Of a stretch of DNA of 64,000 bases, positions 108-54,284 are shown in pieces. Below the pieces are notes generated by a model that did not search any database, was not told where the DNA came from, and saw only the letters and a list, made by a program, of their open reading frames with translations. This DNA is from Niastella populi. GTDB taxonomy: Bacteria; Bacteroidota; Bacteroidia; Chitinophagales; Chitinophagaceae. Made by a program: the position numbers and the translations under genes. The stretch's first letter is position 1. The number at the start of each line of letters is the position of its first letter. The stretch is from positions 1-64,000 of the forward strand of contig NZ_LWBP01000189.1 in the NCBI RefSeq assembly GCF_002078015.1, in the 5' to 3' direction.

Positions 108-251
108 TTGACAATTGTCAATTTGCTGGGTTATTCTACAAATTCTAACCATAATATAACTGCCCGTGCGTTAATTTTGCGGCAAACTTTGCCAAGCGTT
201 TCTAATTTTCATTAAAAAGTGAGTTCGCCGGTTACGAAATGAACACCGGCG
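108..251 (+). promoter_or_regulatory. Upstream region of ECF sigma operon
   Basis: Three elements are visible before the sigma gene. A perfect 14-bp palindrome, TTGACAATTGTCAA, lies at 108-121 and could be an operator. TAATTTTG at 172-179 fits the Bacteroidota -7 consensus TAnnTTTG, but no clear -33 TTTG stands 19-21 bp before it. A hairpin, CGCCGGT (226-232) with ACCGGCG (245-251), lies in the presumed leader and ends 19 nt before the start codon, so it could affect translation. No function has been shown for any of these; this is pattern reading only. Confidence 0.4.
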
Positions 252-270
252 TTTACTATTAATACCGAGC

Positions 271-873
271 ATGATAAAGGGCAATATGTACTCCGATGCG
301 GAATTAATTGCTGCGATCGGAAGAGGTGATCAGATGAATAACGCCATTTTTTACATTTACGAGCAGTATTCTTCTACCATCCAGTCTTATATCCTGGCCA
401 ACAGCGGTACGCCGCCAGATGCCGAGGATATATTTCAGGAAACGGTAATCACTTTTATTGACCTGGTTAAAAAGGACAAGTTCAGAGGTGAAGCCAGCGT
501 GAAAACTTTTTTGGCAGCCATTGCCCGAAACCTGTGGCTGAATGAATTGAAGAAAAGACAACGGAGCGAAGTTCGCGAAAAAGCATTCGAAACGAGCCGC
601 GACCTTACTGAAATGGATGTGAGCGAATACATTGCCGACCGGGAAGTAAAACAACAGTTTGTTGAAGTATTGAGCAAACTGGGGGAGCCCTGTAAAAAAC
701 TGCTTACCCTGTTTTATTATGAGAATCTGTCAATGAAAGACATCACCCATCATTTGCCCTACGAAAATGAACAGGTGGTGCGCAACAAAAAATACAAATG
801 CCTGCAGTCGCTGACGGAACTGGTAAAGCAAAATCCCGTTATCGCAAAGCTGGTAAATAAACAGTCTGATTAG
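271..873 (+). CDS. ECF RNA polymerase sigma factor
   Basis: A 200-residue sigma-70 family factor of the extracytoplasmic-function type. Region 2 covers roughly residues 25-100, with the DAEDIFQETVITFI segment and the aromatic/basic stretch around FLAAIARNLWLNELKKRQR that in this family melts the -10 DNA. Region 4 (about 130-185) has a CKKLLTLFYYENLSMKDI helix-turn-helix that would read the -35. The length is normal for the family. ATG 271 is used; a second ATG five codons later is possible. The downstream gene begins 6 nt after the stop and encodes a membrane protein with an anti-sigma-like N-terminus, so the two probably form a sigma/anti-sigma operon. The regulon is unknown. Family assignment is secure; specific group is not. 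Confidence 0.9.
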   Translation: MIKGNMYSDAELIAAIGRGDQMNNAIFYIYEQYSSTIQSYILANSGTPPDAEDIFQETVITFIDLVKKDKFRGEASVKTFLAAIARNLWLNELKKRQRSEVREKAFETSRDLTEMDVSEYIADREVKQQFVEVLSKLGEPCKKLLTLFYYENLSMKDITHHLPYENEQVVRNKKYKCLQSLTELVKQNPVIAKLVNKQSD

Positions 874-879
874 TTTTTT

Positions 880-1656
880 ATGGAAGACCGCAACGAACAT
901 TTACTCATTAATTACCTCGACCGAACCCTCGAAGAAAGGGAAATGCGGGAGATGGAAGCGCTGATCAACAGCGATCCGGAAACACGTAAACAATGGCAGT
1001 TTTTGCAACTGGCCGTTGATGCCGTTGAATATTCGGCAATTTACGACCAGGTAGCGTCGGTAAGGGAAAACTTCAGGAACATACAACCCGTTGAGGTATT
1101 ACAGGCATCTAACAGAAGACCTGCACGTATTTTTCGCATGAGCAGGGCGTTGCGCGTAGCAGCTGCCGTGTTGTTGCTGATGGTAGGTGCAGGAGCGTAT
1201 AAATTTTTTACCGTTAACGCAACACGCGTCTATGAACAGGCGTTCATAGGGTACACACTACAAACTGACAGAGGTCAGGCAACCATTACCGAAACAGAAA
1301 AAGCGTACCGTCTTCAGAACTGGAACGCTGTTATTGCCACCATTGACCAACTTTCCTTAAAAGATAATAAAGCCTTATTCCTTTCCGGCATGGCCAATCT
1401 GCAATTGAAACAATATGCAGAAGCAGGTATGTTGTTCGAGCAGGTGCTGCAAAACAATAAGCAGGCGGGCGATGACCTGTATCACGATGAAGCGCAGTAT
1501 TACCTGGCGCTGAGCGAACTGGGCGGTAACAATACCCAACAGGCCGTGAAATTATTTCAACAGATCCGGGCCGATAAAGGCCATAAGTATCATACGCAAG
1601 CCGGAAAGATCGGTGATCTCGATCTGAAGATATTGAAATTCAAGGCGAGCCGTTAA
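880..1656 (+). CDS. Membrane TPR protein, anti-sigma-like
   Basis: A 258-residue protein. The N-terminal 60 residues are charged and helical (LLINYLDRTLEEREMREME), resembling the cytoplasmic anti-sigma domains that precede a membrane span, but without the zinc ligands of zf-HC2 proteins. One transmembrane segment lies near 89-110 (VAAAVLLLMVGAGAYKFF). The rest, outside the membrane, holds about three TPR-like helical pairs (for example ALFLSGMANLQLKQYAEAGMLF trimmed around 170-190). The gene follows the ECF sigma gene by 6 nt. The inference is that it holds the sigma factor at the membrane and that its TPR part senses a partner, possibly the TPR-CHAT protein encoded convergently. The anti-sigma role is inferred from position and topology. 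Confidence 0.7.
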   Translation: MEDRNEHLLINYLDRTLEEREMREMEALINSDPETRKQWQFLQLAVDAVEYSAIYDQVASVRENFRNIQPVEVLQASNRRPARIFRMSRALRVAAAVLLLMVGAGAYKFFTVNATRVYEQAFIGYTLQTDRGQATITETEKAYRLQNWNAVIATIDQLSLKDNKALFLSGMANLQLKQYAEAGMLFEQVLQNNKQAGDDLYHDEAQYYLALSELGGNNTQQAVKLFQQIRADKGHKYHTQAGKIGDLDLKILKFKASR

Positions 1657-1757
1657 TTTGAAATAATTTTTAAAAAAAGTTACGATTCGCGGTTACGTTC
1701 TTTTCAACAGCTTTTACTAATTAATAGAACCAGCTCTTTTAAATAATTCCCTTTCAC

Positions 1758-2356
1758 GTTCGTGAGGATCCGAATCAATAATATCGGAAACCTGATCCCG
1801 GCACTGACCGGGAGACAGAGAAACCTGTGTGGTTCCGTCTTCACGAACATCTTTCTACGTTCGTGAAGATCCGAATCAATAATATCGGAAACCTGATCCC
1901 GGCACTGCCTGGGAGACAGAGAAACCTGTGTGGTTCCGTCTTCACGAACATCTTTCTACGTTCGTGAAGATCCGAATCAATAATATCGGAAACCTGATCC
2001 CGGCACTGCCTGGGAGACAGAGAAACCTGTGTGATTCCGTCTTCACGAACATTTATAACATTCGTGAAGATCCGAATCAATAATATCGGAAACCTGATCC
2101 CGGCACTGACCGGGAGACAGAGAAACCTGTGTGGTTCCGTCTTCACGAATATCCCTACACATTCGTGAGGATCTGAATCAATAATATGGAAACCTGATTC
2201 CGGCCTGACCGGAAGACAGAGAAACCTGTGTGGTTCCATCTTCACGGATATTAGCCTCGCATTCGTGAGGACCAGATCATGATATCGGAAACCTGATCCC
2301 GGCACTGCCCGGGAGACAGAGAAACCTGGATGGTCTCTTCTTCACGAATTTTTTTT
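1758..2356 (+). repeat. Six-unit structured inverted-repeat array
   Basis: Six units of 89-91 bp start at 1758, 1859, 1960, 2060, 2161 and 2261 (spacing 100-101 bp), separated by 10-12 bp AT-rich spacers. Each unit begins with GTTCGTGAAGA or a variant and ends with its reverse complement TCTTCACGAAC, giving an 11-bp outer stem. Inside is a second hairpin, TCCCGG-loop-CCGGGA, flanked by a direct repeat of GAAACCTG. Differences between units are often paired: the closing G-C of units 1-3 is A-T in unit 4, and the inner stem of unit 5 is TTCCGG/CCGGAA. Unit 6 is followed by seven to eight T residues. Units 5 and 6 diverge most. Pairing conservation points to a folded RNA or DNA. The function is unknown. 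Confidence 0.9.
2261..2356 (+). terminator. Terminator-like last unit of the array
   Basis: Unit 6 has an outer stem (ATTCGTGA at 2261-2268 with TCACGAAT at 2342-2349) extended by an inner 7-bp stem AGATCAT/ATGGTCT, and is followed directly by a T-run to 2356. This is the form of a factor-independent terminator for rightward transcription, so the array would be the 3' end of the sigma/anti-sigma transcript or of its own RNA. The stem is long for a terminator, hence the moderate confidence. Confidence 0.5.
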
Positions 2357-2591: not shown

Positions 2592-2626
2592 GGTAATCGG
2601 GCAGGCCTCAAAGTCGCCCGGTTACC
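2592..2626. terminator. Hairpin in intergenic region
   Basis: GGTAATCGGGC (2592-2602) pairs with GCCCGGTTACC (2616-2626), with one G-T wobble and a 13-nt loop, and is followed by ATTTTTA on the plus strand. It could end stray rightward transcription or, less likely, leftward transcription past the CHAT gene, whose 3' end is 300 bp away. Confidence 0.4.
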
Positions 2627-2637
2627 ATTTTTAGGTT

Positions 2638-2768: not shown

Positions 2769-2925
2769 ACCAATAATTGTAATTAGATCAATCCAGATAA
2801 TTCATCCCTATATATAGTATGGGATACAACTTATAAAAGTCGACGTTTGATCAAAGGATAACGCAGAATATGCTAGTCCGGAGTACACACATCAGAGCAA
2901 TATTTAATCCGTATACTTGTGTTAA

Positions 2926-5763
2926 CTACGTCGACTTTTTTCTTCTTTTTCGCAGTATCATCAACATTACCGCCAGGGCTGTCATCATTACGCCTATAAC
3001 CGGCAAATACCAGTATGAAGCGGGTGTTTTTACCAGCGGCTGGGTATCGCCGGTCAGGAGTAAATGCGCCCAATAATCAGGCGACCTGTTCACCGCATCG
3101 CTGTGCAGGTAATCGAGTTTTGCCTGTCGCAGCGCTTTGGATTTTGTATATCCCTTTTGTAAGTAAATATGAAATCGATGTAAGATAGCGGCTGTGGCTT
3201 CATCATCGGCCTTCCATAAGCTATTCACCACACTGGCGCAGCCGGCATAGGCAAATCCCCGCGAAATACTTAACACGCCTTCACTATTCACCAAATGACC
3301 ATTTCCTGTTTCACAGGCGCTGATGATCATCAGCCGGGTATTTTCCATATTCAGTCCATACAACTCCTCGAGGTACAGGGCATCCTGCGCCGGTTGTTGT
3401 GTGGCGGGGTAGAAGGTAATGAACGAGGCGGCGCTATTGCCCGTATCGGCTATGGCATGCGTGGCCAGGTGCACAACGGGGTATTGCTGCAGGTGTTGCA
3501 GGAAGGCTTCTTTGGTTGCCTCTTCACCCGTAAACGACTTTCCGGCTAAACCGGCAATTTCCTTTGCCGATGCCGGCAGTTGTTGCATGTAATCATAATG
3601 CGGATGCGGGTATTGCATGCCGCTTTGCGAAAAGGGCGCCATGGCCAGGGTAGAAAACACGGCGGGCGGCGCTTGTGTGCGCGCAGCCTGCGTTACAAAA
3701 AAACGTGCGCCGAACTGGTAACTGATCTCATTTGTTTCAAGCAATAGCCTGGCATTGGGCCCGTCTGCGGCCGGCAACGATTCAAATGGCAGATAGTACA
3801 GGATGTTATCGGGAATGATGGTCCATTCGAACTTATTACCGGCCAGCGCCTGAACAGGTTTTATCAGGTGCCGGTAAATTTGTTCGCCCCAGGGCCCGCC
3901 TTTGAAGCGGCGCCCGCTTTCCGTATTTTGTAAAGCGGTTAGCCATTGTGTTATGGCCTGCTTCAAAACGGGAAATGAATCGATGCGGGTTTGTTTGAAA
4001 TCGTTCTTTGTAATTACAAAAACCTGCAGCGCATTGCCGGTGGCATAAAAACTAATGACCGCCTGCTGTGCATTGAGGTATTGTTGTATGGAATCGGGCC
4101 GGGGATACGCATCGTTGTACTTATGCTGATAGTACACGCTGTTTTGCTCTATGGCATGTTGTACCTGCGCCAGTTGAATTTCAAAGGTCGCTTTTTCGCC
4201 GGCCAGCGCAGCCAGCCTGGCGCTGTCGGTTGTTTGATCGCCGCGGATGCTGATACGGGCGATATTATATTTTATATTTCTCTCCTGTTGTATAAGCGCA
4301 GGATCGATGCCCGGCAGTTTGCGAAAGCTTTTCTCGGCAAGGCCGCCAAACATTACCGAGGCCTTGTTGCGTTCGGCCAGTACAAAGGCCTGCTGCGCGT
4401 AACCTGCACGGGGATGCAAATCGTGTAACTGTAAACATAGCTGCACCGCCTGCTGGTGTACCTGCTGGTTATTGTTTTTCAGGAACAATTTGGCGTCGTC
4501 GGTGTCGTAGCTTTTTTCAATATAGCGTAAGAGGGCGATGGCGCTGTTATAGGTTGCCAGCGCTGTTTGCAGGTGTATTTCTTTTTTCTGTACCGAATAA
4601 AGCGTTTCAAACAGGGTAGCTTTTTTATACAGGGCATCGAAGAGGCGAAAGGAAGTGAATGTACCGGTAAAACTTACAGGGTTCGTTAACGGATCGGGAT
4701 TGTTGTAATGCCCGCTGAAAATGATAATGGCTTGTTGTATTTCGCGCAGCGCGGCATCATATCGTTCTCTTTTCAGCAGTACTTCGCCTTCGTACAAATG
4801 GTGCATGCCGTAGTAAATGCTGTTGGTTTTTGTTGTACCTGCCAGCACCGCCGGTTCGAACCGGTTCAGAAAATGCTGGGCCGAATCGGTATTGTTCCGC
4901 AACAGGTGCGTATGCGCCAGCTCGTTGTACACCCGGGGCAGGGTAGTGGCGTTTACCCGGTGAAACCAGTGCAGCGCCTGTTGGTAATTGCCCATGGCCT
5001 TGTAGGCAAGCCCCATGTTCAGGAAGATCTGGCTGGTAAAAACCTTTTGCGAACAGAGCGTCTGGTATATAGCGATGGCCTGCTGATACAAACCCAGTTT
5101 GTAACAGGATGCGGCAATATTGTTTTCGATATTCACTACCCAGCTTGCATCTCTTTCGGGGTTCTTATTGATGATCTCGAGCGCATGGGTGAAATAGTTG
5201 CGGCTTTGTAAATAATTTCCGTTCTCATAGTATAGAACGCCGAGGTCGTTATACAATCTTTCCTTTTCGGGCACTCCGGGAAAACGTTGCGCCAGCATTT
5301 CGGCCTGCAGCAAAAAATAACTGGCCGAATCGAAATTATTGAGATGATAATAGGTTGTACCGGTATGCTCGCTTACGTCGTACAACAGCGAATCGCTCCA
5401 GTTCCTGTTGCGTTGTTTTATGCGGTGGGCCTGCAGGTAGGCTTCAATGGCCTGCGCATAGCTGGCCTGCACTTCGAGCAAAATGCCTTTGTTCACATGA
5501 GTAAAGAACAACAGGGTATCGGGCACATTGCCGTGTTTTGCAGCCAGGTCGATCACCTGTTCAAAGGTGGCAAGGGCAACACTGTCGGTTGCGTCGGTGG
5601 GGTTGGGCAAACGGAACAACCTGTTTGCTTTATGATACAGGTCGCGGATGGTGGCGGGTCTTACGCTTTCACCGGTATTGTAGGAGCAAAACAGCCAGGC
5701 GGCCAGCGGCAGCCAGCCTTTCCATAAAATGCAATCGATAGTAAGCCTCATTAATTTAACCAT
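2926..5763 (-). CDS. Exported TPR-CHAT caspase-like protein
   Basis: A 945-residue protein with a hydrophobic N-terminus (around 10-28, likely signal peptide), about ten TPR units over roughly 35-460, a linker helix region, and a C-terminal CHAT domain (about 640-900). CHAT domains belong to the caspase/separase clan; the catalytic pair is visible as H769 in HLATHA and C817 in SACETG. A final transmembrane segment near 917-937 is followed by a basic tail RKRRKK, so the enzyme would face the periplasm, tethered by its C-terminus. It is transcribed toward the sigma/anti-sigma operon. The substrate is unknown; the anti-sigma partner is one candidate by proximity. A start at M5 is also possible. 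Confidence 0.85.
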   Translation of the reverse strand: MVKLMRLTIDCILWKGWLPLAAWLFCSYNTGESVRPATIRDLYHKANRLFRLPNPTDATDSVALATFEQVIDLAAKHGNVPDTLLFFTHVNKGILLEVQASYAQAIEAYLQAHRIKQRNRNWSDSLLYDVSEHTGTTYYHLNNFDSASYFLLQAEMLAQRFPGVPEKERLYNDLGVLYYENGNYLQSRNYFTHALEIINKNPERDASWVVNIENNIAASCYKLGLYQQAIAIYQTLCSQKVFTSQIFLNMGLAYKAMGNYQQALHWFHRVNATTLPRVYNELAHTHLLRNNTDSAQHFLNRFEPAVLAGTTKTNSIYYGMHHLYEGEVLLKRERYDAALREIQQAIIIFSGHYNNPDPLTNPVSFTGTFTSFRLFDALYKKATLFETLYSVQKKEIHLQTALATYNSAIALLRYIEKSYDTDDAKLFLKNNNQQVHQQAVQLCLQLHDLHPRAGYAQQAFVLAERNKASVMFGGLAEKSFRKLPGIDPALIQQERNIKYNIARISIRGDQTTDSARLAALAGEKATFEIQLAQVQHAIEQNSVYYQHKYNDAYPRPDSIQQYLNAQQAVISFYATGNALQVFVITKNDFKQTRIDSFPVLKQAITQWLTALQNTESGRRFKGGPWGEQIYRHLIKPVQALAGNKFEWTIIPDNILYYLPFESLPAADGPNARLLLETNEISYQFGARFFVTQAARTQAPPAVFSTLAMAPFSQSGMQYPHPHYDYMQQLPASAKEIAGLAGKSFTGEEATKEAFLQHLQQYPVVHLATHAIADTGNSAASFITFYPATQQPAQDALYLEELYGLNMENTRLMIISACETGNGHLVNSEGVLSISRGFAYAGCASVVNSLWKADDEATAAILHRFHIYLQKGYTKSKALRQAKLDYLHSDAVNRSPDYWAHLLLTGDTQPLVKTPASYWYLPVIGVMMTALAVMLMILRKRRKKST

Positions 5764-54209: not shown

Positions 54210-54284
54210 GGGAGTTTAGCTCAGTTGGTTCAGAGCATCTGCCTTACAAGCAGAGGGTCGGCGGTTCGAGCCCGTCAACTCCCA
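54210..54284 (+). tRNA. tRNA-Val (anticodon UAC)
   Basis: A complete cloverleaf: acceptor stem GGGAGTT/AACTCCC, D arm GCTC/GAGC, anticodon stem TCTGC/GCAGA with loop CTTACAA (anticodon TAC, reading GUA and other GUN codons), variable GGGTC, and T arm with TTCGAGC. The 3' CCA is not encoded. A single gene with its own promoter and terminator. Confidence 0.97.

Follow-up and report, generated by a model that had tools for sequence, protein, structure and literature searches.

The window, by which we mean the whole analysed stretch of 64,000 nucleotides from the soil bacterium Niastella populi, contains near its left end a tandem array located between a sigma/anti-sigma gene pair and a convergent protease gene. 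The locus is made up of the following elements:

230–258, plus strand: promoter P1, ECF-type (GGTTAC-N16-TTTACTA), an exact match before the sigma gene
271–873, plus strand: ECF sigma-70 factor (Pfam Sigma70_r2, 9.9e-10; NCBIfam sigma70-ECF, 2.8e-18)
880–1656, plus strand: membrane anti-sigma-like protein with a C-terminal TPR region (TPR_6, 4.8e-07)
1691–1719, plus strand: promoter P2, a second copy of the sigma promoter, an exact match before the array
1732–1743, plus strand: putative boxA-like leader AGCTCTTTTAAA, of which GCTCTTT is kept in all ten genus loci
1757–1849, plus strand: unit 1 (covariance model R1, 96.2 bits)
1858–1950, plus strand: unit 2 (R1, 96.0 bits)
1959–2051, plus strand: unit 3 (R1, 95.5 bits)
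2059–2151, plus strand: unit 4 (R1, 100.1 bits)
2160–2250, plus strand: unit 5 (R1, 93.2 bits)
2260–2350, plus strand: unit 6, of terminal type (R1, 100.6 bits)
2349–2356, plus strand: T-run right after the last unit, the first terminator-like site
2592–2632, plus strand: second terminator-like hairpin GGTAATCGGGC/GCCCGGTTACC with a T-run, identified by eye in the genus intergenic regions
2835–2939, plus strand: 3' closing element AAAAGTCGACGT (81 nt) ACGTCGACTTTT, overlapping the CHAT stop codon
2926–5763, minus strand: convergent TPR-CHAT protease with hydrophobic helices at both termini (Pfam CHAT, 9.1e-56)

Translation of the sigma gene could begin instead at the ATG at position 286; the majority of matches from outside the genus set in near this residue. 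The identity of the anti-sigma protein is based on its position, its membrane helix and a sub-threshold model match (NCBIfam antisigma, 0.00028, weak and below the model cut-off). Its structure model contains a helix at residues 83–111, hydrophobic by eye, plus TPR-like helices, and gave no PDB match under an E-value of 0.001. The CHAT His and Cys motifs are present in nine out of nine full-length genus proteins (that of G008, of only 196 codons, was left out). The model of the Niastella populi CHAT protein has a mean pLDDT of 78.2, with helices within residues 2–27 and at 915–943 that are hydrophobic by eye; it is unsure at residues 817–851, at, and directly after, the catalytic Cys motif. 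With VIA-align, the best match is Csx29 (7y9x_B; Z 23.0, r.m.s.d. 7.0, 475 aligned), followed by plain TPR proteins with Z up to 20.8 (LGN, 20.8), and with Foldseek separases rank first and the Craspase TPR-CHAT protein sixth. At the level of the fold, the model points to a TPR-CHAT protease of the Csx29 type. PADLOC returned no matches among the four neighbouring proteins.

The tandem array of six units that had been described from the letters alone is real: TRF places a repeat at 1751–2348, with 6.0 copies, a period of 101 and 89% matches, and the covariance model finds six full units. By this model, whole units of about 92 nt are separated by linkers of 7–9 nt, the unit spacing in the window being 100–101. 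Each unit contains an outer stem (stem P1), a mid stem (stem P2), a purine-rich core with two copies of GAAACCTG and a tip formed by a hairpin between CTG and CAG. A CRISPR array was ruled out, as it is the whole units of about 92 nt that repeat and not short identical repeats separated by unique spacers. Rfam has no match to the array; region 1650–2950 gives none up to an E-value of 1, and a check across 11 loci revealed no known RNA family. The only Rfam match at gathering score in the window is a tRNA gene at 54210–54284.

The DNA search located the array in ten of 99 genomes, which are precisely the ten of the genus (Niastella populi among them); the 89 others gave no match. Likewise, a covariance model from 45 units, run on 394 family genomes with strict filters by which weak members could be lost, gave matches in ten, all in the genus, and none in the other 384. 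By the nearest relatives of its sigma, too, the 8.6-Mb genome (G000) belongs to Niastella. Genus records with a name are Niastella vici, N. soli, N. caeni, two Niastella sp., Longitalea luteola and L. arenae; outside the genus, no array units were found in the loci of 23 named relatives. Arrays contain three to seven units per genus genome and occupy one position (that of G001 is split over two contigs), with an anti-sigma orthologue adjoining the array in all ten. In the Niastella populi genome there are six covariance-model matches, all within this array. The surrounding module, which consists of an ECF sigma, a TPR anti-sigma and a convergent TPR-CHAT membrane protease, is shared by many genera of the family. 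In the Niastella soli genome, another tandem array, with periods of 81–101 bp, lies upstream of the module (L053, oriented 260–1045).

For the analysis of pairing, 45 complete units from the ten genomes were aligned, with the cut copy G001b_1 dropped. The RNAalifold consensus contains 28 pairs, 11 of them with double changes. Standard pairs make up 94.7% of the 1256 pair cells, compared to 86.9% when partners are shuffled and 40–49% when they are slid, and 126 cells are altered on both sides, compared to 55 after shuffling. The excess is modest for pairs with a double change (11 versus 8.8, attained in 13 of 500 shuffles) and for further pair types (38 versus 34.8, in 24 of 500 shuffles), and, the units being kin, the shuffles overstate the significance. 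Selection on pairing, as the sequence-only reading had proposed, is borne out by these comparisons, and the upkeep of the stems in relatives, on which that reading had staked its claim, was found throughout the genus. Three of the paired changes singled out earlier are in the alignment: the outer closing pair G-C to A-T, in units 4–6, TTCCGG/CCGGAA in unit 5 and AGATCAT/ATGGTCT in unit 6. A fourth, at the inner edge of the outer stem of unit 5, is doubtful; C to T and G to A are both present, but in the folds the partner of the G/A is a U that lies farther outward (U-G to U-A), and genus-wide the two letters at this edge fail to keep pairing (by eye). The T-run that had been seen directly after unit 6 is T2349–T2356.

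Stems P1 and P2 together contain 612 Watson-Crick, 96 G-U, 0 A-C and 11 other cells. These G-U cells are distributed across 10 of 16 pairs and are partly inherited, with 38 of the 96 from one pair that is usually U-G and the remaining 58 from nine pairs. An excess of 96 G-U over 0 A-C points to an RNA of the plus strand, since a minus-strand RNA should have the opposite bias. In the tip stems, which are loosely aligned, the strand signal is weak (21 G-U versus 13 A-C cells). Folding of the plus strand is better than that of dinucleotide shuffles in the three units tested (z-scores of -5.45, -4.98 and -3.90); the minus strand also beats its shuffles in these three units (-3.87, -5.23 and -2.77), so folding energy alone cannot name the strand. 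The plus strand is favoured in 31 of 46 units and the minus strand is lower in 15, including five of the six window units. The consensus core is not the only possible fold, because in the lowest-energy folds of window units 1–4 the core is paired differently (TCGG with CCTGA). The tips are the most telling for an RNA fold: they are varied segments, 40 distinct ones among the 45 units in 16 families, and nearly all keep a hairpin. When the segments are folded in isolation, the flanking CTG and CAG pair in 38 of 40, and 8 of the 16 family representatives reach p < 0.05 against letter shuffles, with a combined Fisher p of 1.3e-8. Covariation, the G-U/A-C bias and the tip folds support the rightward transcription of a multi-hairpin RNA suggested earlier, and a structured, noncoding plus-strand RNA appears to be the best reading of the array.

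Two other readings of the repeats should be weighed against these data. The units could be DNA-level repeats, that is, an array of recombination sites, a REP-like element or a mobile palindrome family. They are tandem inverted repeats, and in relatives some tips have a TCCGCCA-n-TGGCGGA-type palindrome (by eye). Nevertheless, the array is at a single locus in its own genome and at a fixed position across the genus, the outer stems have 96 G-U to 0 A-C cells, and there is a promoter of its own with terminator-like ends; this reading is largely refuted and retains only a very slim chance. REP/MITE and integron attC repeats as such were ruled out, the copies occurring at one locus only in the genome. 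A palindrome of the same type, with one mismatch in the window, lies just past the array at 2380–2395; it also forms the tip hairpins of some units in G002, G005 and G009, as if a palindrome that is common had become a tip. Nor do we give appreciable credence to the minus strand coding for a repetitive protein. There is an open frame of 154 codons at 1841–2305, but the longest stop-free runs of that strand in 11 stretches from the ten genomes range from 34 to 166 codons and the unit spacing of 100–101 is not a multiple of three; no long reading frame is conserved on either strand.

Promoter P2 begins 35 bp past the anti-sigma gene, with boxes and a 16-bp spacing identical to those of promoter P1. 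The strict patterns used would miss weaker targets; with them, P1 and P2 are the sole exact matches in the 8.6-Mb genome, and one-mismatch matches elsewhere in it number 19, fewer than for the reversed control (50). GGTTAC-N16-WTTACTAWT has 20 matches across the ten genomes of the genus, two in each, all at the array locus and none elsewhere, and the reversed control has five. To judge by these patterns, the ECF sigma seems to have, apart from its own genes, a single strict target, the array. Promoter patterns indicate that the RNA has the sigma's own promoter type before it, as an ECF-sigma-dependent small RNA should, and conserved structure with a terminator is present as well (T-rich ends judged by eye). 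An Hfq partner as in enterobacteria is not: the Niastella populi genome gave no Hfq matches in a search in which control rings were found in 5 of 14 genomes.

The sequence-only reading had placed the array, with a perhaps, at the 3' end of the sigma/anti-sigma message. As a 3' untranslated end, it would stabilise that mRNA or be cut off from it as a small RNA. The distance from the anti-sigma stop to the array is only 100 bp, and read-through from the sigma operon could occur, because no terminator is seen by eye at 1656–1691. Against this, the gap contains a full second promoter, which follows the anti-sigma gene in ten out of ten genus genomes; the earlier assignment is not upheld in the form proposed, and an untranslated end is in our judgement quite improbable.

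Between promoter P2 and the first unit, the leader AGCTCTTTTAAA resembles the boxA of rRNA operons of the genus, and its assignment as boxA-like, from this likeness to rRNA leaders, is provisional. A 16S gene was looked for in the Niastella populi genome and not found; four other genus genomes have one, of which three gave readable leaders. In these, five of six stretches read have AGATCTTTGAAAG ahead of the 16S gene and AGTTCTTTGACA behind it. Leaders of the short-repeat loci described below contain TTCTTTGAAA or CTCTTTGAAA in 7 of 18 printed (by eye).

On the other side of the array, a T-rich stretch follows the last unit in all ten genus loci (by eye; weakest in G009). The ten last units are on one side of a branch of the unit tree (SH-aLRT 89, not starred, 72 columns), and this grouping suggests a terminal unit that is specialised and has been passed on vertically. 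The hairpin at 2592–2632 is preceded by a conserved ACCTGATTTG...TTTAGTTTTC stretch (by eye). Over 2550–2632, between the array and the CHAT gene, the genus loci that were read share a ACCTGATTTG...AATGATTTAGTTTTC stretch with a GGTAAYCGGGC terminator-like hairpin behind it, and this region could represent another small RNA. When the best long stem was sought in 29 RNA-type loci, without a control, the closing element was identified in 28, including the ten genus genomes; L154 and L160 were left out and L127 failed. Both-sided changes are present in some loci (GTCGGCGAA/TTCGCCGGC in L135).

These 3' elements bear on an explanation purely in cis, in which transcription from P2 towards the convergent CHAT gene, with its stack of hairpin terminators, tunes or protects the expression of CHAT as a feedback through interference, and the RNA has no partner. 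The transcription unit ends against the CHAT 3' end, the closing element is at the CHAT stop in 28 of 29 loci, and in the genus several terminator-like sites succeed each other. On the other hand, three to seven copies of a fold of about 90 nt with a conserved core exceed what termination needs, and a lipoprotein gene fills the same slot in sister lineages. We regard the cis explanation as unlikely.

The position behind promoter P2 was compared in relatives by a scan with the sigma alignment, which yielded 80 named loci. Besides the window, seven named loci have the genus array in this slot, 21 have short-repeat noncoding stretches, 28 a protein gene and nine no slot; 15 are unclassified (contig end, slot not computable or no anti-sigma found). 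Six of the 28 slot proteins were tested on Pfam, and five are DUF4382 proteins; L180 had no match. By a loose pattern, promoter P1 is found in 61 of the 80 loci, with its first base 34–86 nt ahead of the sigma match (L183 has a further match at -212). The loose pattern for promoter P2, applied without a control, has a match in 18 of the 21 loci of short-repeat type. Of the 28 loci with a slot protein, 14 match, 12 of these no more than 130 bp from the anti-sigma match; the nine slotless loci, which leave hardly any space for a promoter or none, give no match. Outside the genus, a related consensus was searched for in 14 genomes that have short-repeat loci; 11 of these genomes gave 18 matches, 15 at the module locus and three elsewhere. 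One of the three, in L221 (G438:C34:175900), is just ahead of a small sigma-factor-like frame. Two tandem promoter copies lie ahead of the noncoding slot in L132, L133, L139, L156 and L160 (some by eye). In L154, from a Puia sp. MAG, a short-repeat stretch and a promoter are located between sigma and anti-sigma; in L131, from this MAG too, the slot is missing.

Stretches of the short-repeat kind, which occur in Flavitalea sp. BT771 and Puia dinghuensis among others, are rich in A (or in A and C) and poor in G. In the 15 analysed, a 20-base motif recurs around CCAATCC-nn-TGAAAAAC, in many of them at a spacing of 19–25 nt; the starting motif was drawn by hand from the same sequences it scored, and six of the 21 loci were classed by eye, outside the motif. 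Held-out scoring gave 84 sites versus 15.7 in shuffles, and on leaving one out 13 of 15 stretches have p ≤ 0.05, with L128 and L135 above. In the window array the motif has no sites (1.43 in shuffles), for which reason we treat the two kinds of body as unrelated by sequence, and a shared binding partner has no sequence support. Three other genus arrays have 2, 3 and 2 sites, versus 1.3, 0.8 and 0.6 in shuffles; four of the ten arrays were scored in all.

In the sigma tree, one starred branch (99) divides 35 rows from 46. On the 35-row side are all eight genus arrays, 20 of the 21 short-repeat loci, six without a slot and one unclassified; the 46-row side contains the 28 protein loci, 14 unclassified, three without a slot and one short-repeat locus (L160). 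A single exchange is a tentative reading of this division, because the tree was quickly made, some of its forks are open and its branches, above all that of L173, are very long. Genome G044 has two copies of the module, L059 (G044:C35) and L065 (G044:C27), one with a noncoding slot and one with a DUF4382-like lipoprotein gene (by eye). As a possibility that we would put somewhat short of even, ECF switches of the Chitinophagaceae swapped DUF4382 lipoprotein and repetitive noncoding RNA outputs, perhaps once, the Niastella/Longitalea RNA became a tandem folded array, and CASP-like parts feed this array RNA, a multivalent regulator. If true, this would be a clean case of RNA and protein trading places in a stress circuit.

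Taken together, the array probably serves a dedicated ECF sigma switch as its noncoding RNA output, which may act in trans as a multivalent RNA. The case for a dedicated switch is helped by the promoters of the same type that, in relatives, precede other repetitive noncoding stretches or a lipoprotein gene. In the proposed mechanism, envelope stress would be sensed by the TPR-CHAT protease or by the TPR domain of the anti-sigma, upon which the anti-sigma would be lost and the sigma freed. CHAT may act on the anti-sigma, by analogy to Csx29, a TPR-CHAT protein described in the available text of PMC10028731 as cleaving the sigma inhibitor Csx30 in type III-E CRISPR. The freed sigma would read the two promoters that it has at strict consensus, P1 and P2, and from P2 a plus-strand RNA of six folded units would be made, as covariation and strand bias suggest. 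This RNA would end at the T-run of the specialised last unit or at one of two further terminator-like sites before the CHAT gene, and the boxA-like leader may keep the polymerase moving through the hairpins. In the last and weakest step, the RNA, whole or in pieces of about 90 nt, might show many largely unpaired GAAACC surfaces and act in trans. Its most likely role would be that of a multivalent binder of an RRM-type protein or of target mRNAs, the RNA arm of the stress response; such a binder is preferred because the genome has no Hfq match and seven RRM_1 matches, and because, by analogy, a Bacteroides RRM protein binds multicopy small RNAs. Pairing of the two conserved core segments with the starts of three neighbouring mRNAs is no better than in shuffles (8 of 10 genomes). 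With a strict regulon of two promoters, function should be directly testable, as overexpression of the sigma should switch on little else.

Small RNAs driven by sigma factors are already known. In enterobacteria, the envelope-stress ECF factor Sigma-E drives the noncoding RNAs MicA and RybB, with Hfq as the partner. The array is similar in that an ECF sigma appears to drive a noncoding RNA from its own promoter type, with terminators that have a T-run; it differs by its units in tandem behind one promoter, by being the sole other strict target, by the absence of an Hfq match and by the phylum. LhrC of Listeria, a set of multicopy sibling small RNAs, also consists of many copies of one RNA. The literature covered, which leaves subscription papers outside, yielded no description of the array or the module. 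Among conserved small RNA candidates of Flavobacterium psychrophilum, Rfp18 is likewise a strongly folded noncoding RNA in the Bacteroidota, and the available text on these candidates describes no sigma-dedicated array (PMC9723704). FopS of Bacteroides, also many copies of one RNA in the Bacteroidota, is described in the available text as 14 paralogous small RNA genes with the RRM protein RbpB (PMC11697453); these are separate genes, while the Niastella copies are head to tail behind one promoter. The CASP/Craspase system (Csx29, Csx30 and CASP-sigma), as far as the text of PMC10028731 covers it, has the same set of a TPR-CHAT protease, a sigma inhibitor and an ECF sigma; the fold match to Csx29 (Z 23.0) and a repeat array at the locus are further likenesses. 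Unlike it, the Niastella CHAT protein has hydrophobic helices at both ends, and the Niastella array is free of spacers and follows a sigma promoter, as a probable output. If true, TPR-CHAT/anti-sigma/sigma modules outside CRISPR would be linked to RNA outputs, and a CASP-like module would feed a repeat-array RNA rather than being fed by one. From its sequence, the array would be a new RNA family within a known kind of circuit, with an output that is unusually dedicated and exchangeable.
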